From: Emticicia agri
GTDB taxonomy: Bacteria > Bacteroidota > Bacteroidia > Cytophagales > Spirosomataceae
Assembly: GCA_945860265.1 (NCBI GenBank)
Contig: CAMAQF010000003.1
Span: forward strand, 1 to 64,000
Length of the DNA: 64,000 nt
Reading direction: 5' to 3'
Position numbers and translations under genes: made by a program. The notes below the pieces were generated by a model, which saw only the letters and a program-made list of their open reading frames with translations, was not told the origin of the DNA and made no database searches. Positions 7,438-59,314 of the stretch are shown here, piece after piece; the first letter of the stretch is position 1; each line of letters begins with the position of its first letter.

Positions 7438-7442
7438 AAACC

Positions 7443-41381: not shown

Positions 41382-44132
41382 ATGAAAAAACTCATCTTAT
41401 TATTAGCAATTCCGTTTGCTATTCAAGCCCAAGTTGTCATTGAAGCTCCCGCGGGAAATACCCCAGCCAAAATAGATAAAACAGGCCAAACTATCATTCC
41501 TAACGGGCGTATTATTACACCAAGGGGTGTGCAAATTTCAACTGCTCCGCACCCTTATGGTTTGGTTTTAAGTCCTGATGGAAACACGGCAATTACAGCA
41601 AATTCGGGTATTCGTCCGTTTTCGATTTCTATCATCAAAAATATACTTTCGGCTAATCCTGAAACCATTCAAGTTCCTGAAGGAGCAAAAAATAATGAAG
41701 GAATTTTAGAAGCTTGTTTCATGGGTTTGGCAATTAGTCCAGATAATCAAACGGTTTACGTTTCGGGTGGACAGTCAAACAAAATTTTTAAATATGATGT
41801 CAGCACTGGCAAGGCAAAAGGCAATATTAATTGTGCAATAAAAACTAGTGAGGCTGATTATCGACATGGGTATTTGGGCGATATGGTTATGACCAAAGAT
41901 GGCAAAACGATTTATGTTGTTGACCAAATTGGCTTCCGAATTGCAGTAATTGATGTAGCCACGGAAAAAATCATTCAGAATATCCCAACGGGTCGTTATC
42001 CTTTCGGAATTACACTTACACCCGACGAAAAAAACATTGTAGTGGCGAATGTTGGCGTTTTTGAATACAAAAGATTTACTGATTTAGACCCAAAAAATAT
42101 TAAAGGAACAGCTCACAAATTTCCTTCAACAAAATATGGTTCGAAAGAAATGCTCGAAGGTGATGCCGCTAATGGCATTCCAGCTCTTGGCGACCCAAAC
42201 GCTCCTGAATCTTTTTCGGTTTGGATTTATCCGACTCAATCATCTCAACCAACCGCAAAGATAAAAACTGGTTTCTTGGTTGGACAAATGATTGAAGATT
42301 TTCCTGCAGTTGGTGGCAGTAGTCCAAACTCGGTTGTGGCTACCAACGACTATGTTTTTGTAAGTAATGGAAATAATGATTGTATTTCGGTGATTGATAT
42401 AAAAGGTGGAAAAGTTTTGAAAAACATTCCACTTTCGATTGATAAACGCATCGGCAATTTGCGTGGAATTATTCCTTTTGGCATCACGCTTTCGCCTGAC
42501 CAAAAACGCCTTTTTGTAGCCGAATCAGGCATAAATGCGGTCGCTGTAATTGATATTGCAAGCCTTGAAGTAGTCGGACATATTCCAACGGGTTGGTTTC
42601 CTTCAAAACTAAAGGTGAGTAATGATGGCAAAAAACTTATTGTTGCGAATGCAAAAGGCTTTGGAAGTGGCCCAAATGGTGGGAAAAACTTCAAAATGGG
42701 GGCTGAAGGTAGTTATATTGGCGGTCTGATGAAAGGTCTGGTTTCGGTGATTGATATTCCTACCGATGAACAGGTCAAATCTGAAACTAAGGTAGTTATA
42801 GAAAACAATTTCAAGTTTATTGACCCACGAAAAGGCAAAAATCCGATTCCTGCAACCAATAAAAAACCTTCGAATGAAATTAAATATATCGTATTTATTG
42901 CCAAAGAAAACCGTACTTACGATGAAGTTTTCGGACAAAACAAAAAAGGTGATGGCGATTCGACTTTGGCACGTTTTGGTAATGGTGTAAAAGTTATTAA
43001 TCGCAAAGGTACCAAAACGATTGCTGATGCAAGAGTAATGCCCAATCATTTATCCCTAGCGAAACGTTTTGCAATAAGTGATAATTTCTTCTGTGATTCT
43101 GACGTTTCGGCTGACGGGCATCGTTGGCTCGTAAATACGTACCCAAATGAATGGGTCGAAACCGAAACTGCTGCTTCGTATGGCGGTAAGCTTTCGCAGC
43201 GAGATTCGTCCAATGCTCCCGGAAATTTGGCAATTTATGGCTCGGCTGGCTCCATTTATCCTGAAGATTATAATGAAGGCGGCAGCATGTGGGAGCATCT
43301 TGAACGCAATAAAATCGACTTTTATAACTTTGGTTTTGGTGTAGAAATGGCAGGAGCTTTCAGCGATAGTACCATGAAATATAATGGAGAGCTTTATACT
43401 ATAAACTACCCATTACCAGCACCATTGATTGATAAAACTTCAAGGACTTTTCCGACTTATAACATGGCGATTCCTGACCAGTTTAGAGCCGATTTGTTTA
43501 TGAAAGAATTTAATGAACGTTGGTCAAAAGGCAATTTGCCATCAGTAATTACACTAATGATACCCAACGATCACGGCACGGGCGAACGTCCGCACGCTGG
43601 CTTTCCATTTCAAGCTAGTTATATGGCAGATAATGATTTGGCTGTTGGTCGCACAATTGAATTTTTATCGAAAACCCCTTACTGGAAAAACATGGCGATT
43701 TTCGTAACCGAAGACGACCCACAAGGAGGAGTTGACCACGTGGATGCTCACCGAAGCTTAATGATGGTAGCTTCGCCTTATACAAAAAAGGATTATATAA
43801 GTAAAGTTCATTATAGTTTTGGCAGTATTTTCAAAACTTTTTGGAATATTTTGGGCATTCCTTACCTAAACCAATATGATGCTGGAGCCACTGATATGTC
43901 GGATATTTTTACTGACAAACCAGATTTTTCTCCATACAATGCCATCCAATCTGACCTCCGAATTTTCGACCCGGAAAAAGCTTTAACGCCTTTTGATGAA
44001 AAATTTGACTGGAAATTCTTTGTGAGTTCAGAAGAGCTAGACCGTACCGAAACCATGCAAAAACGTCGCGATGATGATGATAAAGTAGAAAAATTAAAGA
44101 ACAAATCGAAGAAAAAGGATAAGAAAAAATAA
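41382..44132 (+). CDS. YncE-like propeller / phosphoesterase fusion, copy 3
   Basis: 916 residues with a signal peptide (1-17, AIQAQ). The propeller (about 45-480) is longer than in copies 1 and 2. The phosphoesterase domain has KENRTYD (508-514), SADGHRWL, NDHGTGERPHAGFP and EDDPQGGVDHVDAHR (777 onward). The tail is a lysine/aspartate-rich run ending KKKDKKK. EDDPQGG places it in a different subgroup from copies 1 and 2 and together with the partial copy at the window end. It should act in the periplasm on phosphoesters. Confidence 0.87.
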   Translation: MKKLILLLAIPFAIQAQVVIEAPAGNTPAKIDKTGQTIIPNGRIITPRGVQISTAPHPYGLVLSPDGNTAITANSGIRPFSISIIKNILSANPETIQVPEGAKNNEGILEACFMGLAISPDNQTVYVSGGQSNKIFKYDVSTGKAKGNINCAIKTSEADYRHGYLGDMVMTKDGKTIYVVDQIGFRIAVIDVATEKIIQNIPTGRYPFGITLTPDEKNIVVANVGVFEYKRFTDLDPKNIKGTAHKFPSTKYGSKEMLEGDAANGIPALGDPNAPESFSVWIYPTQSSQPTAKIKTGFLVGQMIEDFPAVGGSSPNSVVATNDYVFVSNGNNDCISVIDIKGGKVLKNIPLSIDKRIGNLRGIIPFGITLSPDQKRLFVAESGINAVAVIDIASLEVVGHIPTGWFPSKLKVSNDGKKLIVANAKGFGSGPNGGKNFKMGAEGSYIGGLMKGLVSVIDIPTDEQVKSETKVVIENNFKFIDPRKGKNPIPATNKKPSNEIKYIVFIAKENRTYDEVFGQNKKGDGDSTLARFGNGVKVINRKGTKTIADARVMPNHLSLAKRFAISDNFFCDSDVSADGHRWLVNTYPNEWVETETAASYGGKLSQRDSSNAPGNLAIYGSAGSIYPEDYNEGGSMWEHLERNKIDFYNFGFGVEMAGAFSDSTMKYNGELYTINYPLPAPLIDKTSRTFPTYNMAIPDQFRADLFMKEFNERWSKGNLPSVITLMIPNDHGTGERPHAGFPFQASYMADNDLAVGRTIEFLSKTPYWKNMAIFVTEDDPQGGVDHVDAHRSLMMVASPYTKKDYISKVHYSFGSIFKTFWNILGIPYLNQYDAGATDMSDIFTDKPDFSPYNAIQSDLRIFDPEKALTPFDEKFDWKFFVSSEELDRTETMQKRRDDDDKVEKLKNKSKKKDKKK

Positions 44133-46229: not shown

Positions 46230-46772
46230 TTAATGGTTTAGACAAATTATCTTTAATAATTCTTGCCCAGCCTCCTCAATATTTCCATTATTCAAAATAA
46301 CATATTTATGATCGAATTTCTGGATTTCTAAATTTCTCAAAATGCGTTTTCCAATTTCGTCTTGTGTTTCTCGATTTCGATTGGATAACCTAGATTTGAT
46401 TATTGAGGGATCAGCATCAATAAGAATGTCAATCAATAATGGTATTTTAGATTTTGCCATAGGAATATATTCTCTTGACCCATTGATGACCACATTAAAA
46501 CCGGCATTTAACCAATTAATTACCTCAATTCCAATGCCGTAGAAATTTCCGTGACTTTCCCAGTCTAATGCGAAAAGACCAGTTTCTTTTCTGATTTTAA
46601 AATCAGTTTTTGAAAGTTCAATGTGATTTTCGCCTCCAGAAAAGGCATCTCGTGTGATGTATCGGTGGGCAAACAGAACCTTTTCCCCAGCGATTATCTT
46701 ATTTTTTACGAAATTTAAAAGTGTATCTTTTCCTACACCAGAGGCCCCAACTACATAAAATAATGTTCCCAT
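46230..46772 (-). CDS. phnN: Ribose 1,5-bisphosphate phosphokinase (PhnN)
   Basis: 180 residues of the guanylate-kinase fold. The P-loop is GASGVGKDT (9-17). RYITRD (about 37-42) and GFNVVINGSREY (about 93) are characteristic of PhnN, and RLSNRNRET forms the lid region. It makes PRPP from ribose 1,5-bisphosphate and ATP, the last step of the C-P lyase pathway. It is the third gene of the leftward operon, two bases after the kinase gene before it. Its presence implies that ribose-phosphate products are made here. Confidence 0.88.
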   Translation of the reverse strand: MGTLFYVVGASGVGKDTLLNFVKNKIIAGEKVLFAHRYITRDAFSGGENHIELSKTDFKIRKETGLFALDWESHGNFYGIGIEVINWLNAGFNVVINGSREYIPMAKSKIPLLIDILIDADPSIIKSRLSNRNRETQDEIGKRILRNLEIQKFDHKYVILNNGNIEEAGQELLKIICLNH

Positions 46773-46774
46773 GA

Positions 46775-47560
46775 TTATAATTCTAAGGAGTTTATTAACA
46801 AATCATGCGAATTATTTTCAAATGATTCTTTTATAACAAAATGAGTTTTATCAACTGCCTTCATTATCGCCAATCTAAAATTATCCTTTTTATAAAAATG
46901 AAAAAGCAAAAAAAGTGAAAGAAACAAATCACCGGTTCCACCATACATTTTAGGTATTTTGGATAATGAATAATTGAAATTATCTATCCCATTTACCAAT
47001 ACTCCAATTCTGTTCGGATCCATTTCCATACTTTTTAAAACCAGTGTTGGCTTCGGGAAAAGTAATTTGAACTTATCTAAGATATTTACAGAAGAAACCA
47101 GATGAGGATCAATATTTTGCGTAAAATATTGAATCTCAGTAAAATTTGGAAATACAAAATCAGCTATTTGGATAATCGAAGGCCATTTTTCTATTATGTT
47201 TTCACTAACATATAATTTGCCATTATCACCAGAAACTGGATCTACAATAATAGTTTTTATGATACTTTTGTATTTCTCTAAGTAATTCAGTATGATTTCG
47301 GCCTGATTCTCGTGGCCTAAATACCCGATGTAAACTATCAATTTTAATTCCCGATATTCTGCCAATTCAAAGGAACTTTTCAATAATTCTTCAAAGGGAT
47401 ATTCTATTTTCTTTACCAAGTTCATATTTGTCAAGCCATTCAGGAGTAAAGTTGGAACAGGTAAAATTCTATCTCCCAAAATGCTGATAAATGTTTTCAA
47501 ACTGGCAGTGCCATGAACCGCAAAACTACTAATTGCCAGCGTACATAAATTGTTTTTCAT
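46775..47560 (-). CDS. PdxK/PdxY-like ribokinase-family kinase
   Basis: 261 residues. The opening LAISSFAVHGTASLKTF, the GYLG segment (about 88), DPVSGDNGKLYV (about 127), PNFTE (about 156) and the anion-hole GTGDLF (about 228) follow pyridoxal kinase of the ribokinase superfamily. The usual role is vitamin B6 salvage. It sits between PhnN and an EEP phosphoesterase and overlaps the latter by 4 bp. A role on a ribose-type intermediate is conceivable but unproven. No second B6 gene is nearby. Confidence 0.75.
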   Translation of the reverse strand: MKNNLCTLAISSFAVHGTASLKTFISILGDRILPVPTLLLNGLTNMNLVKKIEYPFEELLKSSFELAEYRELKLIVYIGYLGHENQAEIILNYLEKYKSIIKTIIVDPVSGDNGKLYVSENIIEKWPSIIQIADFVFPNFTEIQYFTQNIDPHLVSSVNILDKFKLLFPKPTLVLKSMEMDPNRIGVLVNGIDNFNYSLSKIPKMYGGTGDLFLSLFLLFHFYKKDNFRLAIMKAVDKTHFVIKESFENNSHDLLINSLEL

Positions 47561-48351
47561 TTAGTATTTATTTGTAGTTTTGCCATTATTCCGAAATGGT
47601 CGCTTGGATATTGATTATTAATCGGATTTTTTTGATTTAAAACTGTTTTAACTTCCATAATTTCGATGTCTGCATTTTCAAGGTATTTTTTAGCGGTAAA
47701 TAAATAATCCACATTTAATTTTTGGCCTTTTTCAAAAGGTTCAACCAAGCTGCTTCGCTCGACAAAATTATCAAAAGTAGAAAAAAGGTCAATAAAGTAA
47801 GCTTTTGAAATCAACCTACTTATTTCTTCTGAGTCTGGTAAAGCATTTAAATCACCTCCTATGATAAACAAATCCGCTTTATTTTGAATTTGTCCAATAA
47901 TAAAATCTATTTGGTTCAATCGATGATTTTCTTTTGTATCGATATGTGTTAAATGCACATTTATTATTTGAAGTTTCTGGCTATTAGGAAGTTTAATTGT
48001 AAGTTTTTGTAGCATTCTTTCCTCATCACCCGGCATATATGGAAGTAAACAGAAATCACTTTTTTCTATTTCAAATTTGCTTAAAACCCCTAATCCAGAT
48101 TCTGAATTGACATATTCATTCAAAAATAGCCGTTCTTTCTTTCTAGCTGAAACATAACTTTGATACATTTCTAATTGCTCTCCCAAATACCTAAGCGTTG
48201 AAACATCCTTTGAACCACAGTAAAAACATTCTTGACATAAAACAACATCTGGATTCAATTTCAACAATTCCTCGGCTAAGTATTTAATTCTTGGAAAATA
48301 ATCACCTTCACATTTCCAAGTATTTATTGTTATTACGCTTATTTTTTGCAC
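47557..48351 (-). CDS. Endonuclease/exonuclease/phosphatase-fold hydrolase
   Basis: 264 residues, no signal peptide. The EEP fold motifs are in order: ITINTWKC (Asn, about 8), VVLCQECFY (catalytic Glu, about 41), INVHLTHID (about 131), GGDLNALPD (about 166) and the terminal SDHFG (about 252). Relatives cleave nucleic acid, inositol phosphates or other phosphodiesters. As first gene of the operon with PhnN it may open or hydrolyse a phosphodiester in phosphonate breakdown, including the cyclic ribose phosphate that PhnP handles elsewhere. This is inference from position only. Confidence 0.8.
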   Translation of the reverse strand: MQKISVITINTWKCEGDYFPRIKYLAEELLKLNPDVVLCQECFYCGSKDVSTLRYLGEQLEMYQSYVSARKKERLFLNEYVNSESGLGVLSKFEIEKSDFCLLPYMPGDEERMLQKLTIKLPNSQKLQIINVHLTHIDTKENHRLNQIDFIIGQIQNKADLFIIGGDLNALPDSEEISRLISKAYFIDLFSTFDNFVERSSLVEPFEKGQKLNVDYLFTAKKYLENADIEIMEVKTVLNQKNPINNQYPSDHFGIMAKLQINTK

Positions 48352-48592: not shown

Positions 48593-49009
48593 TTGAATCA
48601 AGATTATATTTTGTGTGAATGTTCCCTTTCTGCTCTTGAAAATTTTGTAACTGAATTAGAAAAATATTTTAATGTAGTAGTTGCAAAAACTCCTTCAATT
48701 TGCATGACCATGGTCAAAGCAGAAGATTCTGTGGAATCTCAGACTTTTTATTTGGGAGAAGCTCTTACAACTGAATGTCAACTTTTGGTGAATGATAAGA
48801 TTGGCTATGGAATTTGTATTGGTGATGAACCAGTCAGAGCATATTGTATCGCTTTTTTTGATGCAATTACTGACATTGAAAATGAGTTTCTACCACAAAT
48901 TAATCAGTTTTTAAAAGAACAATTGGCCGCTATCGAATTATCTCAAAAAATTGAGCATAACCATATTTTAAGAACAAAAGTTGATTTTAAAATTATGGAA
49001 CAAGACTAA
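48593..49009 (+). CDS. phnG: C-P lyase complex subunit PhnG
   Basis: 138 residues, slightly shorter than the 150 of E. coli. The start is TTG at 48593, because a stop codon precedes it in frame and the first internal ATG would remove 37 residues. Family landmarks are MTMVKAEDSVESQTFYLGEALTTECQL and GYGICIGDEPVRAYCIAFFDAI. PhnG, PhnH, PhnI and PhnJ form the core complex. PhnG helps PhnI transfer the ribose-triphosphate group from ATP to a phosphonate. It is the first gene of a 14-gene rightward operon, which would run to the phosphoesterase at 60179. Confidence 0.88.
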   Translation: MNQDYILCECSLSALENFVTELEKYFNVVVAKTPSICMTMVKAEDSVESQTFYLGEALTTECQLLVNDKIGYGICIGDEPVRAYCIAFFDAITDIENEFLPQINQFLKEQLAAIELSQKIEHNHILRTKVDFKIMEQD

Positions 49010-49016
49010 TCTAGAA

Positions 49017-49613
49017 ATGAAAAAAGAAATATGCTTTGAGGAAGTATTTGATGCACAAGAACAATTCAGAATCGTTTTAGATGCCATGGCTCATCCAGGC
49101 ATAATTTATCATCTTAAAGATTTTGACTTCGAAGCACCACCCTACCTTTCAAATGCTTCTGCCGTGATTGCCTTTGCCTTATTAAATTCCGATGTTTCTT
49201 TTCATGCCATCGGCGACGCTCATATTAGCGATTATTTAGCCTTAAATACTGGGGCAGTAGAAGAGACTTTTGAAAAGGCCGATTTTGTATTTATCAATGG
49301 AAACAATAACGCCGATGTCTTATTTAAATTGAAATATGGAAATTTGTCCTATCCAGAAGATTCTGCAACTGTATTAATTGACGTAGAAGAAATAAGTAAA
49401 TTTCACTTGGATGGAATCACAGAAATTATTTTCAGAGGACCAGGGGTAGAATTTGAAAACAAGGTATTCTTTCGGGGCTTAAATAGCGAAATTTTGGAAA
49501 CGGTCAAAGAAATAAATTTTGAGTTTCCCTTGGGTATCGACTTGATTTTTTGTGATAAAAACAATCAAATTGTGGGCTTACCAAGATCCAATAATTTTGA
49601 TTATAAAGTTTAA
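49017..49613 (+). CDS. phnH: C-P lyase complex subunit PhnH
   Basis: 198 residues from the ATG at 49017, seven bases after the PhnG stop. An in-frame upstream ATG at 48981 lies inside phnG and is rejected. Landmarks are FRIVLDAMAHPGIIYHL, the variable middle, IIFRGPGVEF and the C-terminal NFEFPLGIDLIFCDKNNQIVGLPRSN. These match PhnH, a PLP-transferase-fold protein without a cofactor that scaffolds the PhnGHIJ complex. Confidence 0.88.
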   Translation: MKKEICFEEVFDAQEQFRIVLDAMAHPGIIYHLKDFDFEAPPYLSNASAVIAFALLNSDVSFHAIGDAHISDYLALNTGAVEETFEKADFVFINGNNNADVLFKLKYGNLSYPEDSATVLIDVEEISKFHLDGITEIIFRGPGVEFENKVFFRGLNSEILETVKEINFEFPLGIDLIFCDKNNQIVGLPRSNNFDYKV

Positions 49614-49649: not shown

Positions 49650-50747
49650 ATGGGATATGTAGCTGTAAAAGGAGGATCTGACGCCATCGAAAACTCACTA
49701 GAATTGGTGGAGTTTTATCGAATAAGGAACTCAATAACTCCAATCGAAATTGAGCAAATTAAATCCCAGTTACGATTGGCGGTGGATAAAGTGATGGGTG
49801 AAGGTGGACTTTTTACGCCTGAATATGCCGCTATTGCCCTTAAACAGGCCGAAGGAGAAGTTTTTGAGGCAGCTTTTATTTTGCGAGCTTTTCGCACGAC
49901 ACTCCAACGCAGATATTATTCAGAGTCAATTAATACGCGTGAAATGTTTGTGAAAAGGAAAATTTCTGCCTCGTTTAGAGAGATTCCTGGCGGGCAAATT
50001 TTGGGACCTACTCGTGACTATTCACAGAGAATTATGGATACCAAAAAGGCATCGGAAAGTACAGCTGATATTCAAAATTTCTTGCAACAGTTTGAGTCGA
50101 AAATTGACAATAATACCTTAAAAAGTATAAAAACGTACGCAAAAGTAATAGACTTACTCAGAGAGCAAGGATTGTTGAAACCTATCGACAAAAAAGAAAA
50201 TAAACAACTATTGGACATTACAAGGGAAGCAATCAAATTTCCTGCCGCACGTTCTGCGAGGTTACAAATGTTGGCTCGAGCTGAGACGGGTGGACTCATG
50301 GCTATGGGATATGCCAGTATGCGAGGTTTTGGTTCGGTACATCCTACGGTTGGGGAATTGCGATACGGCTCGGTACCAGTGACTGTAAAAGACCCTTCTG
50401 GAAAACTCAGATATATTGGTAAAATTGAGGTTACGGAGGCCGAAATGATAAACGGAACATCTTCCAATAAAAAATCTGAGGCTGCCTTATACACCATTGG
50501 TTACGGTTTATGCTTTGGACAAAATGATACCAAAGCGATTTGCATGGGGATATTAGATACCACGATGCGTAACCCCGATTCCAATCAGCCTGCTAATGAT
50601 CAAGAGTTTGTGTTGTATCATACCGAAGGCATTGAGTCAATGGGTTTTACAAACCATTTAAAACTGCCGCATTACGTAACTTTTCAAAGTAGTTTGAAAA
50701 ACGTTAGAGAAGAAGTAGAGCGTAAAAAGGAAGTGGCCACCGTTTAA
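49650..50747 (+). CDS. phnI: C-P lyase complex nucleosidase-type subunit PhnI
   Basis: 365 residues, the usual length. The start MGYVAVKGGSDAIENSLELVEFYR and the block RAETGGLMAMGYASMRGFGSVHPTVGELRYG, then HTEGIESMGFTNHLKLPHYVTFQ, are diagnostic. PhnI displaces adenine from ATP and links the phosphonate to ribose C1, giving ribose 1-phosphonate 5-triphosphate. Nothing in its sequence looks damaged, in contrast to the PhnJ encoded 11 bp downstream. Confidence 0.92.
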   Translation: MGYVAVKGGSDAIENSLELVEFYRIRNSITPIEIEQIKSQLRLAVDKVMGEGGLFTPEYAAIALKQAEGEVFEAAFILRAFRTTLQRRYYSESINTREMFVKRKISASFREIPGGQILGPTRDYSQRIMDTKKASESTADIQNFLQQFESKIDNNTLKSIKTYAKVIDLLREQGLLKPIDKKENKQLLDITREAIKFPAARSARLQMLARAETGGLMAMGYASMRGFGSVHPTVGELRYGSVPVTVKDPSGKLRYIGKIEVTEAEMINGTSSNKKSEAALYTIGYGLCFGQNDTKAICMGILDTTMRNPDSNQPANDQEFVLYHTEGIESMGFTNHLKLPHYVTFQSSLKNVREEVERKKEVATV

Positions 50748-50758
50748 TTTAATGAAAA

Positions 50759-51655
50759 ATGGTAGAAAATAACAAATACATCAATAAGTACAATTTTGCT
50801 TTTATAGACGAATCCACTAAAAAGGAAATCAGGAGAAAATTGCTAAAAGCGGTGGCTATTCCTGGTTATCAAGTGCCATATTCATCGCCCGAAATGCCCA
50901 TTGCACGTGGTTGGGGAACGGGAGGATTACACGTAACTTTGGCAATTATCGGCAAAAAAGATATTTTTAAAATAATAGATCAAGGCAGTGATGCTTCGGT
51001 GAATGCGTGCAATTTGCGAAATTTTGTTCAGTCGATGACGGGCGTAAAAACCACTTTTGATACTTCGGAAGCTACGATTATACAAACAAGACACCGAATA
51101 ACGGAAGAAGAGCTAAATGAAAATCAAATTTTTGTTTATCAAGTTCCTCAGCCTGAGCCTTTGCGGTCCGTTGAAAGATACGAAAACAAAACCCGTCAAA
51201 TGCATGGCGAGGCAAATTATGCCAAAATGTGGGTTGCACTTTATGAACAGTTTGTAAGTCACGGCGATATCATGTTGGGAGCGGGCTATCCAGTCAAAGT
51301 AAATAATCGATACATTATGGCTCCTTCGCCGATTCCCAGATGGGATATTCCTAACCTAAATCTGTCAAAAGCATTGCATTTGTTTGGAGCTGGTCGTGAA
51401 AAAAGGTTGTACGCTATTCCTCCTTTCACAAAGGTAGAACCCCTTGAATTTGATGATATTAAGTTTCATATCGAAGATTTTAAAGGCAGTGCTTGTTCAA
51501 AAACAGGTTATAAAAAGGCATTTTTAGATGAAATGTATTACGATGACGGTAGCACTAATTTTGTCATAAATGATAGTAATTTTTTGGATAAATTATCTGA
51601 AAAAGAACAACCTACTCAGCACGAAAATAAATATATCAATCAGATAGCAGAATGA
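50759..51655 (+). CDS. phnJ: PhnJ homologue lacking the radical-SAM cysteine set
   Basis: 298 residues. The family body is well kept: YNFAFIDE near the start, AIPGYQVPYSSPEMPIARGWGTGG with the radical-bearing glycine (Gly36, Gly32 in E. coli), IIQTRHRI, QVPQPEPLR and FGAGREKRLYAIPPFT. Canonical PhnJ ends in CX2CX21CX5C, which binds the 4Fe-4S cluster and supplies the thiyl radical. Here the aligned residues are Cys246, Thr249, Ile270 and Leu276, so three of four cysteines are gone although flanking LDE..YDD still aligns. The tail is also extended by about 20 residues. Ordinary radical-SAM C-P cleavage looks impossible without an altered cofactor. The gene is intact and in frame. Confidence 0.9.
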   Translation: MVENNKYINKYNFAFIDESTKKEIRRKLLKAVAIPGYQVPYSSPEMPIARGWGTGGLHVTLAIIGKKDIFKIIDQGSDASVNACNLRNFVQSMTGVKTTFDTSEATIIQTRHRITEEELNENQIFVYQVPQPEPLRSVERYENKTRQMHGEANYAKMWVALYEQFVSHGDIMLGAGYPVKVNNRYIMAPSPIPRWDIPNLNLSKALHLFGAGREKRLYAIPPFTKVEPLEFDDIKFHIEDFKGSACSKTGYKKAFLDEMYYDDGSTNFVINDSNFLDKLSEKEQPTQHENKYINQIAE

Positions 51656-52500
51656 GTAATACGGAAGACAATTGGTTATTGAAAGTTAATAATTTGACCA
51701 AAATATACGGCGATTATACTGAAAATTCTATTAAAAATACGGGCCCTAAATTCAACTCAAATATTTGCCCAGAAACAGGAAGTATTGTGGCTTGTGCGGA
51801 TATCAATTTTGAACTATATCCTGGTGAGGTTTTAGGAATTGTGGGGGAATCGGGCTCTGGCAAAAGTACAGTCGTGAAATTGCTCTATTTCGATATGGAG
51901 CAAAGCTTGGGTTCCGCATTTTTAAAGCCGCACCTCGATGGTTTATCTAATATTTTGGAAGAGTCTAATCAGAAAAAACGTTGGATTCGTAACTATTTGA
52001 TGGGAATGGTCTATCAAAACCCTCGCGATGGACTCAATTTTAAGTTTTCTTCGGGTGGAAACATCGCTGAAAAACTGATTATGGGGGGCAATTTTCACGT
52101 CGGTAATATTCGTAATCGTGCCACAGATTTATTGGAAAAAACCGAAGTTCCTGTTTTAAGAATGGATGATAAACCAGCCTCATTTTCAGGTGGTATGCAA
52201 CAAAGGGTACAAATTTCAAAAGCCATTGCCAATAACCCGCCCTTGCTTTTTTTGGACGAAGTTACGACTGGATTAGACGTTTCGGTGCAGGCAAAAGTAT
52301 TGGATTTAATTCGGGAATTACAACAAGATTTGGGCATTGCCATGATCGTGGTTTCGCACGATTTGTCCGTGATCAGAATGCTAACGGATAGAACAATAGT
52401 GATGAAAAACGGCAGAATAGTTGAACGGGGGCTTACCGACCAAATTTTGCAAGATCCTCAACATAAATATTCTCAACTTTTGGTTAGCTCACTTTTATAA
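51652..52500 (+). CDS. phnK: PhnK ABC-type ATPase of the C-P lyase complex
   Basis: 282 residues overlapping phnJ by four bases. Walker A is GESGSGKST, the Q-loop lies in VYQNPRDGLNF, the signature is SGGMQQRVQ and Walker B is LLFLDEVTTGLD. PhnK binds the PhnJ face of the core complex and is not a membrane transporter. Before Walker A is an insertion with ICPETGSIVACADINF (Cys39, Thr42, Cys48). As I recall, many PhnK homologues carry CPxCG there as part of a zinc-ribbon-like site, so the change to CPETG would be another lost metal cysteine. Confidence 0.9.
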   Translation: MSNTEDNWLLKVNNLTKIYGDYTENSIKNTGPKFNSNICPETGSIVACADINFELYPGEVLGIVGESGSGKSTVVKLLYFDMEQSLGSAFLKPHLDGLSNILEESNQKKRWIRNYLMGMVYQNPRDGLNFKFSSGGNIAEKLIMGGNFHVGNIRNRATDLLEKTEVPVLRMDDKPASFSGGMQQRVQISKAIANNPPLLFLDEVTTGLDVSVQAKVLDLIRELQQDLGIAMIVVSHDLSVIRMLTDRTIVMKNGRIVERGLTDQILQDPQHKYSQLLVSSLL

Positions 52501-52509: not shown

Positions 52510-53211
52510 ATGAATATTCTCGAAATAAACGACTTGAGCAAGGTTTTTAATCTTCATATTCTCAACAATAAAAAGTTAGAAGCATTAAAGTCAATCAATT
52601 TAACTGTAGCAGAAGGAGAAATTATTGGTTTAACTGGCAAGTCTGGCTCGGGTAAATCGAGTTTGATGAAATGTATTTATCGCACCTATTTAGCCTCTGG
52701 GGGACAGATAAATTACAAATCTATCAATGGAATGGTGGATTTGGTAACTGCTTCTGACCATGAAGTAATAGAATTACGCAAAAACGAAATTACCTATTGC
52801 TCCCAGTTTTTGAGTGTGATTCCAAGAGTTTCGGCCGTTGATGTCGTTTGTGAAAATTTATTCAAAGTAAATGCCGACAAAGAGGCTGCCCGCTACAAAG
52901 CCAAAGGAATGTTACAACAATTGGGTTTTCCGGCAGAACTTTGGGACGCTTTTCCCGTTACATTTTCAGGTGGTGAACAGCAGCGTATCAACGTAGCGAG
53001 GGCGATTATAACTTCTCCGAGATTTTTATTGATTGATGAACCAACTGCCTCTCTCGACCCAAAAACCAAAGATATTGTTGTTGATATGCTTTTGGATTTA
53101 AAGAAACACGGAACATCTATTCTCTGTATTTCACATGACGAATACACGATTGAAAAATTGGTTGACCGGAGAATAAACCTTCATTTGGGTGAAATTTTAA
53201 ACTTAAATTAA
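52510..53211 (+). CDS. phnL: PhnL ABC-type ATPase of the C-P lyase complex
   Basis: 233 residues. Walker A GKSGSGKSS (about 42-50), Q-loop CSQFLSVIPRVSAVDVV typical of PhnL, signature SGGEQQRIN and Walker B FLLIDEPTASLD. PhnL pairs with PhnK on the core complex during the ATP-driven reaction cycle. It is followed 20 bp later by phnM. Confidence 0.9.
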   Translation: MNILEINDLSKVFNLHILNNKKLEALKSINLTVAEGEIIGLTGKSGSGKSSLMKCIYRTYLASGGQINYKSINGMVDLVTASDHEVIELRKNEITYCSQFLSVIPRVSAVDVVCENLFKVNADKEAARYKAKGMLQQLGFPAELWDAFPVTFSGGEQQRINVARAIITSPRFLLIDEPTASLDPKTKDIVVDMLLDLKKHGTSILCISHDEYTIEKLVDRRINLHLGEILNLN

Positions 53212-53231: not shown

Positions 53232-54416
53232 ATGAGTTCATTATTTATTAAAAATGCAAGAATCATTGAGCCTAAAAATGTAATTGAAAGAGGTCATTTA
53301 AGAATAAAAGAGGGAAAGATAGTGGATTTTGGAGATCTTTTAGCGGATGAAAATGAGCAAATTATTGATGCCAAAGGTTCGATATTGATGCCTGGGATTA
53401 TTGATATTCACACGGATGCCTTAGATGGAGAAATCATACCGAGACCCGGTGCAGATTTTCCGATAGAAATTGCCTTCAGAGAATTGGAAAGAAAAATGAG
53501 TGGATGTGGTTTTACAACTGTTTACCATTCGATGCACTTAGGTTATCGTTCGGCAGAATATAATTCACGCAGTAAATATAAACGCAATGAAGTTTTTGAA
53601 ACAATACATAATGCTTCCAAAGGAAATACATTAATTAATAATAAAATACACTTGCGTTTTGAACTGACAGGTGTGGAAGCCTACCAAGAATGCCTCGAAT
53701 ATATCGAAAAAGGATTTATTCAGATGCTTTCAATTATGGATCATACTCCTGGTCGTGGCCAACATACCATAGAATGGTTTATGAAGATGGTTATGGCCAA
53801 CGGAAAAACCGAAGAGCAAGCCCTTCAAGAACTTAATGAAAGGTTAAATCGACCGCTCATTGATGGGGACGAACTGGAAAAAATGATCAATCTGGCAAAG
53901 GAAAAAGGATTAGCGGTCGCCTCACATGACGACCATACCATCGAAAAAGTGGATTATATGATCAAAATGGGGGTTGATATTTGTGAATTCCCGATTACAA
54001 TGGAAGTGGCAAAATATGCAACTTCTCTTGGGCAATATGTTATTGGCGGAGCTTCAAACATTTTAAGGGGCGGCTCTCTTACCGGAAATTTGAATATGAC
54101 CGACGCTGTTTTGGAAGGAGCAATCGACAGCTTGTGTTCAGATTACTACCCTTCAGCTATCATTCATTCAATTTTTAAATTACACCAAAAACATGGATTA
54201 GGCCTTTCCGAAGCTGTGAATTTAGCAACCTTAAATCCTGCCAAAGCCGTTGGAATTGATAGCGATACTGGCTCAATAGAAATAGGAAAAGATGCAGATT
54301 TGATCATAGTAAAACTAATTGATGGGCTACCGATGGTCACCCATACGATTGTAAAAGGAAAAATTGCAGTACAAACTCCTCAAGAAATAACTTATAATGA
54401 ATTGAGTTATGCTTGA
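53232..54416 (+). CDS. phnM: PhnM, ribose 1-methylphosphonate 5-triphosphate diphosphatase
   Basis: 394 residues of the amidohydrolase superfamily. Metal motifs are PGIIDIHTDALDGEIIPRPG (about 55-75), SIMDHTPGRGQ, LAVASHDDHT (about 228) and CSDYYPSAI (about 298). It removes pyrophosphate from the ribose-triphosphate intermediate to give the 5-phosphate substrate of PhnJ. The motif set is complete, so this step of the pathway seems active. The next gene starts 45 bp after its stop. Confidence 0.92.
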   Translation: MSSLFIKNARIIEPKNVIERGHLRIKEGKIVDFGDLLADENEQIIDAKGSILMPGIIDIHTDALDGEIIPRPGADFPIEIAFRELERKMSGCGFTTVYHSMHLGYRSAEYNSRSKYKRNEVFETIHNASKGNTLINNKIHLRFELTGVEAYQECLEYIEKGFIQMLSIMDHTPGRGQHTIEWFMKMVMANGKTEEQALQELNERLNRPLIDGDELEKMINLAKEKGLAVASHDDHTIEKVDYMIKMGVDICEFPITMEVAKYATSLGQYVIGGASNILRGGSLTGNLNMTDAVLEGAIDSLCSDYYPSAIIHSIFKLHQKHGLGLSEAVNLATLNPAKAVGIDSDTGSIEIGKDADLIIVKLIDGLPMVTHTIVKGKIAVQTPQEITYNELSYA

Positions 54417-54460
54417 TAAAGGATTGCTTTTTGTCTATTCTTGAGTTTTTACAGCGTAAT

Positions 54461-55285
54461 ATGAATCCGTCCCTAAACATTTCCAATATAATGAACGACT
54501 ATTCCTATGATAAGTATCTTGAACGACAGTCGTTTGAAATTACACCTGATTGTATCTTAGAGAAGTTAGCCTCGATTAAAAAGGCCAACAATTTTGAATG
54601 GATTGAAAATGACTGGAAACCAAATAGTTACGAAGGTTTTGGCGTGATAACCATGGTGAGAGATCACCCCAAAAATGAACTATTGATCACAAAATTAGAG
54701 GAAATACAGAAAGAGTTTGATTTGAAATTGGCAACAAAGGATAGAAATTTATTCTCAAAGTATTTTCAATTACCTGCCACTAGCTATCACCAAACGCTTG
54801 CAAATTTGCTTTCAAACGAGCGTTTTCAGAAAAATATTATTGACCGTGATTTGCTCAAAAATTTCCCAAATATTATAAAAGAAGCCTTTGAAAGATGTGA
54901 TGAAGAAGAGTATTTTCAGCCAATTGCCATGAAGATGATTGGACTATCGGTATTTGGAACATGCGTTGCCATGCTCGGTACTTTTGTCCATGAGGGCGAT
55001 TACCAAAGAATTACTGATATCAGGAATAGCATTTATAAGCAAGATAATTTAGCAGATTTGGACATAAAAATGACTCGACCATTTATTGGACACATTACAC
55101 TGACCTATTTTGAGGCCGAATTCATTGATTCAGAAAAGGCGAATTTGGGAACGGTAATTAATGAGATTAATCAAAAATTAAGTGAGGAGGAAAATATCTT
55201 CTACATCAACTCGACTTCGCTGAGAAGATTTCATCATTTAGCCGAATTTTTAACAGTTGAAAATTACCCTAAAATTTTAATTTAA
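54461..55285 (+). CDS. 2H-phosphoesterase-like protein in the phn operon
   Basis: 274 residues from the ATG at 54461. A TTG at 54413 overlapping the phnM stop and an ATG at 54491 are the alternatives. Two His-x-Thr motifs are visible, SYHQTL (His110-Thr112) and GHITLTYF (His211-Thr213), about 100 residues apart as in the 2H cyclic-phosphodiesterase superfamily. The middle is acidic and helical. Phn operons elsewhere can carry another 2H family (DUF1045). No PhnP is present here, so this protein is a candidate for opening the 1,2-cyclic ribose phosphate. Homology is inferred from motifs only. Confidence 0.65.
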
Positions 55286-55287: not shown

Positions 55288-55938
55288 ATGGAATATTTCG
55301 AGCATTTTCCTCCAAAAATAGAAACAAAAATACCATTTTTATTGACTGAAAAGCCAACCATAGACCCAACTTGCATCATTCGTGATTCTTACCTCGGTGC
55401 TTATACGCAGTTGATGAAAAATACAATGCTGGTCGAATCAAGTTTTGGGGATTATAGTTATACGGCGGGTGATGTGCAAATTATCTATGCTGAAATCGGA
55501 AAATACTGTTCCATCGCCAATAGTGTTCGCATAAATCCAGGCAATCATGCTCATTGGCGGGTTTCGCAACACCACATGACCTACAGACCTATGCAATATG
55601 GACTGGCAGAAGAAGACGATCATGATTTTTTTCAATGGCGACGTAATCATAAATGTATCATCGGACACGATGTTTGGATTGGTCACGGTGCTTCAATAAT
55701 GCCTGGGGTAAAAATTGGAACGGGGGCGATTATTGGTACGGGAGCTGTCGTTACAAAAAATATTGGTCCTTATGAAGTGGCAGTTGGTGTCCCAGCCAAA
55801 GTGATAAAAAAGCGGTTTTCGGACGAAATAATTGATAAATTATTGAAAAGTGAGTGGTGGAATTGGAGCAGAGAATCTCTTGAGGAAAATTTTAATGACC
55901 TTTTTTTAGTAGATACATTTTTAGCAAAACACATATAA
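55288..55938 (+). CDS. Hexapeptide-repeat acetyltransferase of phosphonate operons
   Basis: 216 residues with a left-handed beta-helix made of hexapeptide repeats: [45 protein letters not shown] and [26 protein letters not shown]. The segment after NPGNH with [11 protein letters not shown] is typical of the phosphonate-associated subgroup of this xenobiotic/chloramphenicol acetyltransferase-like family. It may acetylate aminoalkylphosphonates to detoxify or prepare them. Its start is 2 bp after the preceding gene. Confidence 0.85.
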
Positions 55939-56837
55939 TGAAAAACTTTTTACTGAGCCTTTTGAGTATATTTATTTTATCATGTAACGGTTCCAAAACT
56001 GATTCATTTAATAATCCTGATAAATTAATTATTGGGATTTATGCTGGGGACAATCCTAACCAAACAAAAGAAAACATCGTGTTTTTTCAAAAATATTTGG
56101 AGAAAGAATTGGGTAAAGAAGTTGAATATATTTTTACGTCGGATTACACTACGTTGGTAGAAGGAATCCAAAGAAAAAAATTGCATATCGCACAACTTTC
56201 ACCTTTTTCTTACGTTCTCGCCACCCGAAAGCCCTGTTTAGTGCCTTTGGTTACTTTTGGGCTAAACAATAAACCATCAAGTTATCACAGTATCATTTTT
56301 TCAAATAGTCAATCTGCTATTAAAAATATAGCAGATCTTCAAAAAAATGGAAAGAATCTTACCCTTTGTTTTGGTGATCCTGCCTCTACATCGGGTCATT
56401 TACTTCCCAGAGCTTATTTAAAATCCATTGGTTTTGAACCTGATAGTAGTTTTAAACAAGTGGTGTTTACAGGCACCCATGCCGCTACAATTTTAAGTAT
56501 AAAATCCAAAAAAATAGATATCGGATGCTCCTCAAGTGACCTCGCCTTGGACAGATTAATAAGAGAAGAAGTGGTAAAACAGTCAGATTTTAATATACTA
56601 TGGACATCCGACGATATCATTAATGACACCTTTTCCGCCAGCATTGATTTAGATAAAAAGCTTATTGAGAAAATAAAAAAGGCATATTTAGAGGTACATA
56701 AGAAAGATTTTAATGCCTTTAAAAAATCTATTTTTAGGTTTTATCCCGATGCTCGGAATCGTCAGTTTATACCCGTTTCAGACTCCATGTATAACAGTTT
56801 AAGAAAAGTAGCCGCCAATATTAAAGAACTGAAATAA
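55938..56837 (+). CDS. phnD: Phosphonate ABC transporter substrate-binding lipoprotein PhnD, first copy
   Basis: 299 residues with a lipobox ILSC (Cys about 16). The PhnD fold shows TSDYTTLVEGIQ, IAQLSPFSYVLA, CFGDPASTSGHLLPRAYL (about 149-166) and GTHAATILSIKSKKIDIGC. It is tethered to the membrane and delivers phosphonates or organophosphates to PhnE. The first base of its ATG is the last base of the preceding stop codon, showing tight coupling. It has a divergent paralogue next door. Confidence 0.9.
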   Translation: MKNFLLSLLSIFILSCNGSKTDSFNNPDKLIIGIYAGDNPNQTKENIVFFQKYLEKELGKEVEYIFTSDYTTLVEGIQRKKLHIAQLSPFSYVLATRKPCLVPLVTFGLNNKPSSYHSIIFSNSQSAIKNIADLQKNGKNLTLCFGDPASTSGHLLPRAYLKSIGFEPDSSFKQVVFTGTHAATILSIKSKKIDIGCSSSDLALDRLIREEVVKQSDFNILWTSDDIINDTFSASIDLDKKLIEKIKKAYLEVHKKDFNAFKKSIFRFYPDARNRQFIPVSDSMYNSLRKVAANIKELK

Positions 56838-57751
56838 TGAAAAATGTCCTAATTTTTCTCATTAGTCTATTGCTTTTTTCCTGTGGTAAAACATCCGATC
56901 TTGACGAAAACAATATTCCCAAAAAAATTGTAGTCGTTTTCAACAATTCAGGAGATAATACCGGTTCATTAATAAAAGCTCGAGAAAAATTCAAAAATTA
57001 TTTGTCTAAAAAGCTAAATAAAGAAGTTGAACTTTACATCACAACCGATTACACTTCGGTGATAGAAGCGATTAACTCCAAAAAGGCACATATTGCTTAT
57101 TTGAGTCCATTTTCTTACATTTTGGCTGCACAAAAGAAAAATGTAACGCCGCTGGTTGCGGTGGGAATGAACGGCGAACCACGCATGTATAGTAGTATAA
57201 TTTTTACGAGTAGTAAATCAAGTATTAAAAGTATTGAAGACGTTAAAAAACGAGCAAAATCCTTAAACTTGTGCTTTGTGGACCCAGCCTCTGCCTCCGG
57301 GCATTTGGTGCCAAGAGCCTACCTTGAAAGTATTGGATTAAGTCCAGATAATGCCTTTAAAGAAACCCTTTTCGCTGGTACCCACCCCGCTTCTGTGCTG
57401 ACCGTAACGTCAAGTAAAGTTGATATTGGTTGTACCACTGCCGAATTTGGTTTACAAAAAATGATAAAAGAAGGGATTATTAAAAAAGAGGAGGTCAGAA
57501 TTCTGTGGACTTCAGACCCAATTGTTGCCAGCCCAATTTGTATTCGTAGTGATATAAATCAAGAATATATCGAAAAAATCAAAGGCATTTATTTGAATTT
57601 GGCAAAGGATGACCCCGAAGTTTTTACTTCCTACATCAAAGTTTTCTACGCCGACGCTAATAAAATGGCTTATTTTCCGGTGAATGATTCATTGTATAAT
57701 GGCATTCGAAAAATAGCGAGAGGCATTAAAGACATAAATTTATTCAAATAA
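56837..57751 (+). CDS. phnD: Phosphonate ABC transporter substrate-binding lipoprotein PhnD, second copy
   Basis: 304 residues, lipobox LFSC (Cys about 16). It has the same layout as the first copy: TTDYTSVIEAIN, IAYLSPFSYILA, CFVDPASASGHLVPRAYL and GTHPASVLTVTSSKVDIGC. It differs in the ligand-side segment TSDPIVASPICIRSD, which is the more canonical of the two. The start again overlaps the previous stop by one base. Tandem binding proteins sharing one permease could widen the range of imported phosphorus compounds. Confidence 0.9.
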   Translation: MKNVLIFLISLLLFSCGKTSDLDENNIPKKIVVVFNNSGDNTGSLIKAREKFKNYLSKKLNKEVELYITTDYTSVIEAINSKKAHIAYLSPFSYILAAQKKNVTPLVAVGMNGEPRMYSSIIFTSSKSSIKSIEDVKKRAKSLNLCFVDPASASGHLVPRAYLESIGLSPDNAFKETLFAGTHPASVLTVTSSKVDIGCTTAEFGLQKMIKEGIIKKEEVRILWTSDPIVASPICIRSDINQEYIEKIKGIYLNLAKDDPEVFTSYIKVFYADANKMAYFPVNDSLYNGIRKIARGIKDINLFK

Positions 57752-57752: not shown

Positions 57753-58523
57753 ATGATAGAAGTTATCAATATATCCAAGACGCTACCCAATGGCAAAAAG
57801 CTTTTAGACAACATTTCTTTCAAAGTAAAAAAAGGAGAATTTGTTGGCATTTTGGGAGCTTCAGGTGCTGGGAAAACATTAACTTTGAGGAGTTTAAATG
57901 GCTTGCTAAAGCCGGATTCAGGTTCAGTAATTTTCAAAAATGAAATAGGCGAAAAAGTTAATATTTGTGCACTTTCCAATAAAAAACTCAGAAAAGTAAG
58001 GCAAAAAATTGGGGTAATTTTCCAAGGCTATCACTTAGTTCAAAGGCTGAGTGTGTTAGAAAATGTGATGATTGGCCGTCTCGGGAGCATAACTACTTTT
58101 AGAAGTATTTTTTACGGATTTACAGACGCCGAAGCACACGAAGCCATGGGAGCATTGGAAAAAGTAAACATGGAACACTTGGCTAATAATAAAGTTTCAA
58201 GTCTTAGTGGTGGCGAAAAACAGCGTGTAGGCATCGCCAGAGCTATTTTTCAAAAACCAAACTTACTTTTGGCCGATGAACCCATCTCCAATTTAGACCC
58301 TAAAAACGCCAAATTAATTATGAAAATGATAAAGCCACTTTCTGAGGAGATTCCGGTGATTGGGGTTTTTCATCAACCAGAAATGACGGCTAAATATTGC
58401 ACGAGAGTGATTGCTATTAAAGAAGGAAAAATTATTTACGATGGCCAGCCAAATTTGAGCGAAAGCCAACTTTCAGAAATCTACGGGGAAGAATTATCAA
58501 CGCTGGCATTGCAAGTAAAATGA
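57753..58523 (+). CDS. phnC: Phosphonate ABC transporter ATPase PhnC
   Basis: 256 residues. Walker A GASGAGKT (35-42), Q-loop FQGYHLVQRLSVLENVMIGRLG, the characteristic PhnC spacing, signature SLSGGEKQRVGIARAI and Walker B LLLADEPISNLD. It energises phosphonate import through the two PhnE permeases that follow, overlapping the first by 4 bp. Confidence 0.92.
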   Translation: MIEVINISKTLPNGKKLLDNISFKVKKGEFVGILGASGAGKTLTLRSLNGLLKPDSGSVIFKNEIGEKVNICALSNKKLRKVRQKIGVIFQGYHLVQRLSVLENVMIGRLGSITTFRSIFYGFTDAEAHEAMGALEKVNMEHLANNKVSSLSGGEKQRVGIARAIFQKPNLLLADEPISNLDPKNAKLIMKMIKPLSEEIPVIGVFHQPEMTAKYCTRVIAIKEGKIIYDGQPNLSESQLSEIYGEELSTLALQVK

Positions 58524-59314
58524 AATTAGCCGAATTTAAAATATCAAGATATAAAAACGTCGTCTTGCCAACAGGAGGACTTATTTTCCTGACTTTTTTA
58601 GCTTCAAAATCATGTAAAATTGATTTTTCAGACTTTGGTGAAGGAATAGCAAACGGGACATTTTTTATCGCCAAGATGTTTCCTCCCGACTGGGCTGCTT
58701 TCCCAGAAATGCTTCAACCTACTTTTGATACCATTTTGCTTGCATTTTTAGGTACTATTTTTGGCACCATACTTTCACTATTTGTCGCATTTTTTGCGGC
58801 TGCTAATCTATGCAATCTTTGGGTTCGCAACATCACACGATCCTTGATAAGCATTGAGCGGTCTATTCCAGAACTTTTTATTTTGTTGATTCTCATTACT
58901 GCCTTTGGTTTAGGAGCTGTACCAGCCATTATAGCCATAGCTTTGGGTTGCGTGGGCATGCTGGGCAAGTTATTGGCCGATACAATTGAGGATATTCCAC
59001 CCACGCTGATGGATTCTGTGGCCTCTATTGGAGCAAACAAAATTCAAATCATTGCTTTCGCCGTGATGCCCGAAATCATACCAAATCTAATCTCCTATGC
59101 CTTGTTTCGATTTGAAGTTAATATTCGCCTTTCGGTACTTTTAGGAGCCATTGGAGCAGGGGGAATTGGTTATGAACTCGAAAATTCTTTTAGTTTATTA
59201 GAATATCACCGTGCTTTTTCAGCCTTACTTATTGTGCTAGTTTTGGTTTTTAGTATTGAGCGTTTGTCTTCTTTTTTTAGAAATAAATTAAAAAATGCAA
59301 TAGTTTTGAAATGA
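58520..59314 (+). CDS. phnE: Phosphonate ABC transporter permease PhnE, first copy
   Basis: 264 residues with about six membrane helices. The N-terminus has KMFPPDWAAFPEMLQPTFDTI, a family landmark, and the ABC-coupling EAA loop is SIGANKIQIIAFAVMPEIIPNLI (about 173-195). It forms half of the membrane channel. Its start overlaps phnC and its stop overlaps the second permease, so all are translated together. Confidence 0.9.
   Translation: MKLAEFKISRYKNVVLPTGGLIFLTFLASKSCKIDFSDFGEGIANGTFFIAKMFPPDWAAFPEMLQPTFDTILLAFLGTIFGTILSLFVAFFAAANLCNLWVRNITRSLISIERSIPELFILLILITAFGLGAVPAIIAIALGCVGMLGKLLADTIEDIPPTLMDSVASIGANKIQIIAFAVMPEIIPNLISYALFRFEVNIRLSVLLGAIGAGGIGYELENSFSLLEYHRAFSALLIVLVLVFSIERLSSFFRNKLKNAIVLK

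Follow-up and report, generated by a model that had tools for sequence, protein, structure and literature searches.

The closest described system to the locus analysed here is the canonical carbon-phosphorus (C-P) lyase of Escherichia coli (PhnGHIJKLMNOP; PDB 4xb6, 7z15-7z19), in which PhnJ is an S-adenosylmethionine (SAM)-dependent protein with a [4Fe-4S] cluster site at Cys241, Cys244, Cys266 and Cys272 and a radical-bearing glycine, Gly32. In passages of the structure paper, its authors call the mechanism an unresolved conundrum and name the distance of 30 Å between the cluster and Gly32 as one difficulty (PMC9947105). We analysed a window of 64,000 nucleotides from Emticicia agri (assembly GCA_945860265.1, contig CAMAQF010000003.1, positions 1 to 64,000 of the forward strand) that encodes PhnG, H, I, J, K, L and M together and in which the product of phnJ (50759-51655, + strand) lacks C244, C266 and C272. 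This cluster-less variant of C-P lyase, which we refer to as Cys-less, is real, conserved and wider than one operon.

The window has the same subunits as the E. coli system, the same order G-H-I-J-K-L-M, PhnCDE and PhnN, as well as the PhnJ fold, the radical glycine, the His-site residues and the PhnK ATPase residues. It differs from E. coli in the lost PhnJ cysteines, in a PhnK insert that E. coli does not have and whose cysteine motif is lost, in a 2H phosphodiesterase gene after phnM, and in showing no PhnP match in the retrieved flanks. A second point of comparison is the ribbon-type canonical C-P lyase of Thermodesulfobacteriota, Bacillota, haloarchaeal plasmids and part of the Chloroflexota, whose loci are the canonical ones nearest to the window PhnJ among the best 80 of 232 relatives. 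These loci have a PhnK N-terminal insert of the same length as the Cys-less group that includes the window (clade A, see below) and differ from it by CxxC..CxxC in PhnK and all four cysteines (CCCC) in PhnJ.

The product of the open reading frame 50759-51655 matched E. coli PhnJ (4xb6_D) with an E value of 1.3e-92 in an alignment that covers residues 8-282. In this alignment the E. coli columns C241, C244, C266 and C272 hold Cys246, Thr249, Ile270 and Leu276, the same residues that a preliminary description of the window sequence had assigned to them, and the codons of these four residues lie at 51479-51590 (+ strand), where that description had placed the lost site. It had also reported that the radical-bearing glycine is conserved, and Gly36 (codon 50864-50866, + strand) indeed aligns with E. 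coli Gly32. The AlphaFold 2 (AF2) model of the window PhnJ, built on 47 of 90 alignment rows, superposed on E. coli PhnJ (7z19_H) with a template modelling score (TM-score) by target of 0.94 and a root-mean-square deviation of 1.9 Å over 273 columns. The region of the lost site was predicted, without metal, as a confident hairpin and helix, with block means of the predicted local distance difference test (pLDDT) of 89-95 for residues 231-290.

Because a separate contig of a second Emticicia metagenome-assembled genome (MAG), locus L008, has identical residues at the site with 98% protein identity to the window PhnJ, at a synonymous divergence (dS) of about 0.29 and a nonsynonymous divergence (dN) of 0.008, a sequencing error is unlikely. 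The cysteines are likewise not supplied by another copy as far as the draft genome goes (90% complete, 174 contigs), in which no second PhnJ was found; a second canonical phnJ had been named in the preliminary description as what would overturn its proposal. For the wider group, copy number was checked for 49 of the 66 Cys-less loci from the scan described below, and in 45 of these 49 genomes no other PhnJ was found. The remaining four, all Rhizobiales, have a second PhnJ with all four cysteines. A Cys-less PhnJ is also the sole PhnJ in genomes G000, G114, G115 and G237.

Cys-less phnJ is under purifying selection, with strong constraint between close relatives. Between the window and L008, the C-terminal domain (43 codons) showed a dN of 0 and a dS of 0.34, compared with 0.008 and 0.29 for the gene. 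The corresponding dN and dS values were 0.032 and 0.52 (C-terminal domain 0.028 and 0.32) for a pair from Fibrisoma, and 0.034 and 1.10 (0.089 and 1.18) for a pair from Mucilaginibacter, so that dN/dS was about 0.03-0.06 in the three close pairs. These values, together with the intact subunit genes, uphold the earlier view of a maintained operon rather than a decayed one. Decay or loss of function of the operon, or a fault in the assembly, is accordingly a very unlikely explanation and the least probable of those we weighed: residues held to be essential are lost, and the PhnK of L077 and the PhnI of L079, both from Chloroflexota MAGs, are each split into two frames, but separate contigs agree, the operons are intact under the low dN/dS, and the loss occurs in two clades across six phyla.

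To collect PhnJ relatives, contigs of the GTDB were scanned with four Bacteroidota PhnJ as seeds. The scan yielded 232 relatives, and among the best 80, which were analysed, 66 lacked the motif and 14 had all four cysteines; L038 alone of the 66 keeps C244 besides C241. Addition of the window, three further loci, eight plasmid loci and E. coli, and removal of three repeats before counting (L029-L031, the same loci as L007, L006 and L005), gave a set of 90 rows with 72 Cys-less and 18 canonical PhnJ, a proportion that is not a frequency because the set was seeded with the variant. The preliminary description had covered one operon; the residues stand, and the scope widens to two clades in six phyla.

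PhnJ is rare among the relatives of the window. With the window genome counted each time, it was found at the genus level in 1 of 11 genomes, at the family level in 3 of 222, and in samples of the order, class and phylum in 4 of 390, 1 of 395 and 1 of 296. The four distinct Bacteroidota PhnJ obtained in this way all show the same cysteine loss. The genomes of three cultured strains, Fibrisoma limi, Mucilaginibacter oryzae DSM 19975 and M. polytrichastri, show only Cys-less PhnJ. Samples of other phyla are less biased than the seeded scan, though each contains its Cys-less centre genome. PhnJ occurred in 11 of 151 Chloroflexota genomes, four of them Cys-less (L133 and the genomes of L049, L059 and L071) and seven canonical; in 2 of 125 Verrucomicrobiota genomes, the Cys-less centre and one canonical; and in 1 of 129 Acidobacteriota genomes, the centre itself. 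In the Pseudomonadota, 17 of 130 genomes had a PhnJ above the cut-off, canonical in all 17 and accompanied by an extra Cys-less copy in three (one being the centre); an eighteenth, weak match has internal stops. A scan of viral contigs gave no match.

Phylogenetic trees, built without the C-terminal columns, resolved two clades of Cys-less PhnJ. Clade A comprises Bacteroidota, Verrucomicrobiota and Acidobacteriota; clade B comprises Chloroflexota, Deinococcota, including the Thermus plasmid pVV8, and Alphaproteobacteria (Rhizobiales, Haematobacter). Support was 100/99 for clade A and 98/98 for clade B in a 43-row tree, and 99 and 97, respectively, by the Shimodaira-Hasegawa-like approximate likelihood ratio test in an 86-row tree, from which eight near-duplicates (L008, L021, L028, L034, L069, L079, L082 and L084) were left out and out of which the 43 rows were selected. 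In the best tree, which has two changes, canonical PhnJ separate the two clades. A single origin, with A and B forced together, was not rejected by the approximately unbiased (AU) test on the 43-row set (p-AU 0.08), so the cysteines were lost once or twice. According to the 86-row tree, L092 belongs to clade B despite a cysteine at column 80; the per-column cysteine percentages and the shared-gene clusters used below still count it in A. The MAGs labelled Beijerinckiaceae (L024) and Gracilibacteria (L052) fall among sequences from phyla other than their own and are perhaps misbinned. The phn operon on plasmid pVV8 of Thermus thermophilus HB8 (L089) encodes a Cys-less PhnJ with C, T, V and M at the four positions, so that this laboratory model thermophile would be convenient for tests.

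The replacing residues follow a pattern. Cys is retained at position 241 in 70 of the 72 Cys-less rows, the other two (L070 and L074) having Asp. Position 244 is Thr in 49, Ser in 22 and Cys in one, and position 266 is Ile (38), Leu (19), Val (13) or Met (2). Position 272 is the most varied, with Leu in 35 rows, Ala in 10, Met in 8, Gly in 8, Val in 7, Ile in 2, and Gln and Trp in one each; therefore, none of the residues found there can act as a thiyl. The lost site looks like a metal ribbon whose core has turned mostly hydrophobic. No PhnJ cysteine besides that at 241 is common to clades A and B in these rows, and no replacement ligand set common to both clades was found.

These counts bear on the earlier suggestion of a cluster ligated in another way, which finds no support in PhnJ itself: only I, L, V or M stand at 266, the residues at 272 range over L, A, M, G, V, I, Q and W, two rows have Asp even at 241, and there is no common new cysteine. 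A cluster held at the same place by substitute ligands, namely Cys246, Thr249 and Asn271 or Asp272 in window numbering, is thus highly improbable. In its favour, Cys246 and Asp272 are invariant in a 47-row set and Cys241 (E. coli numbering) is kept in 70 of 72 rows, but the 47 rows include seven canonical PhnJ, so that Asp272 is present in canonical PhnJ too and is no substitute. Moreover, positions 266 and 272 offer no plausible ligand, one Gln excepted, the predicted domain is well ordered without metal, and no candidate ligand inside PhnJ is conserved across the Cys-less rows.

We also compared the cysteines of the other subunits. An insert in PhnK carries CxxC..CxxC in 16 of 18 canonical rows (in L091 with one spacing shorter) and is absent in E. 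coli and Nostoc. The window PhnK retains a remnant of it, DYTENSIKNTGPKFNSNICPETGSIVAC (51712-51795, + strand), in which the first cysteine pair is gone and CPxC has become CPET. Clade A PhnK in general keep the length of the insert and lose its motif, the first pair being gone and the second usually reduced to its first cysteine, a second loss that the preliminary description does not mention; clade B PhnK have no insert. The PhnK of L050 and L061 have N-terminal extensions, and the alignment shows the insert cysteines in both. Within the subset of loci in which both states were read, the PhnK motif occurs only beside a CCCC PhnJ. The insert may provide another metal site beside the core complex. 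In clade A both motifs have disappeared, and a single cysteine and a Thr-like remnant are left of each; this suggests that the PhnJ and PhnK cysteine motifs were once a working pair, for example an electron route or two structural zinc ribbons. The pairing is not obligatory, as E. coli PhnJ keeps its four-Cys site without the PhnK motif.

In PhnG, the window has the cysteines C10, C37, C62, C75 and C85 that characterize clade A, in which all five are present in 23 of 33 rows and at least four in 29 of 33. Canonical PhnG (n=16) have at most two of the five. This set supports the view that another protein or subunit makes the radical, either an independent activase of the kind that serves other glycyl radical enzymes or a cluster that moved to PhnG in clade A, and retention of Gly32 fits it as well. 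We nevertheless regard this explanation as unlikely. Of the five cysteines, no more than two remain in the PhnG of L027, L028 and L040 and three in that of L022, clade B PhnG have at most one, at column 84, and the replacement of the PhnG cysteines by G, T, S or F fits small buried residues. As to an activase, no recurrent radical-SAM or ferredoxin neighbour was noticed in the gene clusters shared by at least four loci, which were read by eye with a few Pfam scans, not every cluster being scanned and the remaining genome not searched. A move of the cluster to another subunit throughout the Cys-less group was rejected: over all Cys-less rows, no cysteine column of PhnG to PhnM exceeded 60% except PhnG 84 (85%), PhnJ 241 (97%) and PhnL 53 (78%; canonical 88%). 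A relocated site in PhnG is possible in part of clade A only.

The other known catalytic residues have stayed. The radical glycine is Gly in 72/72 Cys-less and 18/18 canonical PhnJ. In PhnJ, the G47-T50 loop, R107, H108 and Q124 do not vary across the Cys-less rows (72/72). PhnI H328 and H333 are present in 72/72, and H219 in 70/72 with two gaps. PhnK D170/E171 occur in 69/69 Cys-less PhnK rows and H204 in 68/69 (one gap), and PhnL H207 in 95% of clade A and 100% of clade B. The window has every one of the His-site residues (PhnI H328, H333 and H219; PhnJ R107, H108 and Q124). According to excerpts of the E. coli cryo-EM study, these residues and a Zn ion at the PhnI-PhnJ interface hold a ligand modelled as 5-phosphoribosyl 1,2-cyclic phosphate (PRcP), the four-Cys site lies about 30 Å from Gly32 without relative movement between states, and Gly32 is 31 Å from the His-site Zn ion in the open state (PMC9947105). 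Because of these distances, neither the cluster site nor the His site adjoins the radical glycine.

Taken together, the retained subunits and residues tip the balance modestly towards a functional C-P-lyase complex that obtains phosphorus from phosphonates with a PhnJ devoid of its C-terminal metal site, whether that site provides a [4Fe-4S] cluster or the Cys272 thiyl; judged from the sequences, the complex likely degrades phosphonates. In the pathway that we propose, a phosphonate would enter through PhnCDE, and PhnGHIL together with PhnM would make 5-phosphoribosyl 1-phosphonate. Cleavage of the C-P bond would then take place inside the core complex with neither a [4Fe-4S] cluster on PhnJ nor a Cys272 thiyl, and the most likely location for it is the substrate pocket retained at the His/Zn site between PhnI and PhnJ. 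The product would remain 5-phosphoribosyl 1,2-cyclic phosphate, the ring of which would be opened in Bacteroidota by the 2H phosphodiesterase, and PhnN would lead on to phosphoribosyl pyrophosphate (PRPP). If cleavage proceeds without the PhnJ cluster, the canonical four-Cys site may therefore have a structural or accessory role and not be where the bond is cut, at least with certain substrates.

The preliminary description had further suggested a different chemistry, and a chemistry other than radical cleavage is possible in the Cys-less complex. One such proposal, rather doubtful in our estimation, is a polar transesterification without a radical. At the Zn/His site, the 2'-OH of the ribose would act as the nucleophile towards phosphorus, with the carbon group as leaving group, and so give the 1,2-cyclic phosphate directly from activated phosphonates, that is, those with a stabilised carbanion such as keto- or carboxy-phosphonates. 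The His-site residues kept in 72/72 rows, the missing cluster and the lack of a noticed recurrent activase agree with it, the distance of 31 Å between Gly32 and Zn suits a mechanism that does not use Gly32, and the coexistence of canonical and Cys-less copies in Rhizobiales fits a division of substrates. Such a route would not obviously require the invariant Gly32, although this residue may be structural. It would account for the absence of the cluster and for the retention of both the His site and the product enzymes, but its activity would be confined to activated phosphonates. The broader form of the proposal, that the six-phylum branch cuts C-P bonds by an oxygen-insensitive Zn/His polar transesterification without Fe-S or SAM, we hold to be slightly less probable still.

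Several observations weigh against the functional cluster-independent complex that we prefer. The literature covered yielded no activity data for a Cys-less PhnJ. For E. coli, the 2013 work of Kamat reportedly makes the cluster essential, through the cluster itself, SAM cleavage, the Gly32 radical and Cys272. The radical glycine is as far from the His site as from the cluster site, so that, if the glycyl radical takes part in the chemistry, its action at that pocket and its formation without a cluster would both need an explanation; a radical-SAM activase was, as described above, not noticed among the gene clusters common to at least four loci, which were inspected by eye and not all scanned. 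A canonical copy stands beside the Cys-less PhnJ in the four Rhizobiales genomes and in three Pseudomonadota of the phylum sample (one genome being common to both), and in such two-copy Rhizobiales and Pseudomonadota the Cys-less PhnJ could be a paralogue with a specialised role. Between more distant sequences, the C-terminal domain evolves faster than the rest of PhnJ, with a proportion of nonsynonymous differences (pN) of 0.199 versus 0.075 between the window and L009. The split frames of PhnK in L077 and PhnI in L079 belong here too, and in Verrucomicrobiota, Acidobacteriota and clade B neither the 2H family nor PhnP was found in the retrieved flanks; on the product side these flanks showed only PhnN in two rhizobial plasmids and a DUF1045-annotated gene in L095. 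Because of this, the argument from the product side is limited to the Bacteroidota.

That argument starts from the gene at 54413-55285 (+ strand), a 2H phosphoesterase gene proposed as a substitute for PhnP, whose product has no Pfam or NCBIfam match. The protein contains two H-x-[ST] motifs in a two-lobed fold; H126 and H227 in its HxT motifs are invariant in the 20 rows of the family. Its AF2 model (pLDDT 90) matched 2H-type cyclic phosphodiesterases in Foldseek with TM-scores by query of about 0.34-0.49, among them the Arabidopsis enzyme 1jh6/1fsi and LigT (5ldm), and its sequence profile alone gave weak matches (E about 0.05) to structurally characterised 2H proteins. The Arabidopsis enzyme is a cyclic phosphodiesterase that we take to open ADP-ribose 1,2-cyclic phosphate (Appr>p). 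The protein shares the two HxT motifs and a related fold with these phosphoesterases and differs from them in an identity of only about 15% and in its best match, an Agrobacterium protein of unknown function (2fsq).

Of the 21 clade A Bacteroidota-type loci (L024 included) whose sequence extends over 3.7 kb past phnJ, 19 have the 2H gene, and L012 and L016 lack it. The gene directly follows phnM or, in the case of L028 and L040, phnL; beside a canonical PhnJ it was seen once, in L046. The phnN cluster has members in 14 loci, 12 of them clade A. Because a 2H cyclic phosphodiesterase accompanies most Bacteroidota operons, the Cys-less complex appears still to yield a 1,2-cyclic phosphate, which suggests that the usual ribose product is retained in Bacteroidota. 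From its operon position and its relatives, we propose that the 2H protein hydrolyses 5-phosphoribosyl 1,2-cyclic phosphate, and together with PhnN it could supply the roles of E. coli PhnP and PhnN.

A loss of Fe-S ligands has a parallel in clusterless MutY, in which the cysteine ligands are replaced in some lineages while fold and function are thought to persist. The two cases differ in that the MutY cluster is not a proposed radical source and the PhnJ cluster is. In two clades, evolution has in effect removed the cysteines and left the other known catalytic residues in place, which bears on the 30 Å gap in E. coli: either the textbook mechanism of C-P lyase is incomplete, or Cys-less bacteria break the bond in another way. 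The cultured strains that have only Cys-less PhnJ make the need for the cluster directly testable. We found no report of PhnJ without these cysteines in the parts of the open-licence PMC literature covered, and papers outside that set may mention it. In the relevant sections of a groundwater study, two major PhnJ clades are described and the four cysteines are confirmed in the proteins of that study (PMC11978286). A large survey states that sequences were verified or removed by residues essential for catalysis or cofactor binding (PMC9381506); surveys filtered in this way could silently drop the Cys-less branch. Conversely, phnJ counts have been taken as the capacity to form methane from methylphosphonate, for example in a passage of PMC10734540, and if Cys-less complexes release no methane, estimates that count them are too high.

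The phn locus of the window comprises 14 + strand genes, beginning with phnG at 48593 and ending with the second phnE at 60117, in the order G, H, I, J, K, L, M, 2H protein, hexapeptide transferase, D, D, C, E, E; open reading frame positions and family matches thus bear out the tight 14-gene operon of the preliminary description. Its statement that the other subunits are kept alongside the variant PhnJ also agrees with our results, in that PhnG, H, I, J, M and N pass curated Pfam or NCBIfam family cut-offs. PhnG (48593-49009) matched PF06754 with 75 bits, below the cut-off of the PhnG NCBIfam model, PhnH (48981-49613) PF05845 with 135.7 bits, PhnI (49650-50747), with H219, H328 and H333 (E. 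coli numbering) retained, PF05861 with 442 bits, and the 298-residue PhnJ PF06007 with 424.7 bits (cut-off 25). For the ABC ATPases PhnK (51652-52500) and PhnL (52510-53211), the general ABC_tran was the only Pfam model passed, and their best NCBIfam matches remained below the cut-offs: TIGR02323 (CP_lyasePhnK) with 234.8 bits for PhnK (equivalog cut-off 302.85) and TIGR02324 with 253.6 bits for PhnL, slightly below 256.3. PhnM (53232-54416) reached 387.6 bits with NF011990 (cut-off 233). From these scores, the complex looks like a divergent C-P lyase subfamily.

Downstream of the 2H gene follow a hexapeptide-repeat transferase of phn operons (55288-55938; TIGR03308, 253.8 bits, cut-off 201.65), two phnD genes for phosphonate-binding proteins (55938-57751; PF12974, 166 and 177 bits) and phnC, phnE and phnE for a phosphonate ABC transporter (57753-60117; PF00005, PF00528), with BLAST partners in the Fibrisoma operons, all on the + strand. 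The ribose 1,5-bisphosphokinase gene phnN (46230-46772; TIGR02322, 190 bits, cut-off 156) lies on the - strand. Adjoining phnN are genes for a Phos_pyr_kin kinase and an Exo_endo_phos protein (46775-48351, - strand), which are divergent from the operon and have relatives in 6 and 11 clade A loci, respectively, with the window counted. Two related large proteins, which form one sequence cluster, flank the phn region at 41382-44132 and 60179-62920; the latter matches the phosphoesterase family PF04185, and both are perhaps further organic-phosphorus enzymes.

A member of a response-regulator cluster occurs in 20 clade A loci, anywhere in the retrieved stretch, and not in the window. By eye, an OmpR/PhoB-like response regulator gene of this cluster was seen upstream of phnG in L005 (7237-7956), L006 (reverse, 6917-7642) and L007 (1088-1807). 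The Fibrisoma operons also encode, again as seen by eye, a thiamine-phosphate-synthase/TenI-like protein between phnD and phnC (L005, 16885-17565; L006, reverse, 16491-17189).

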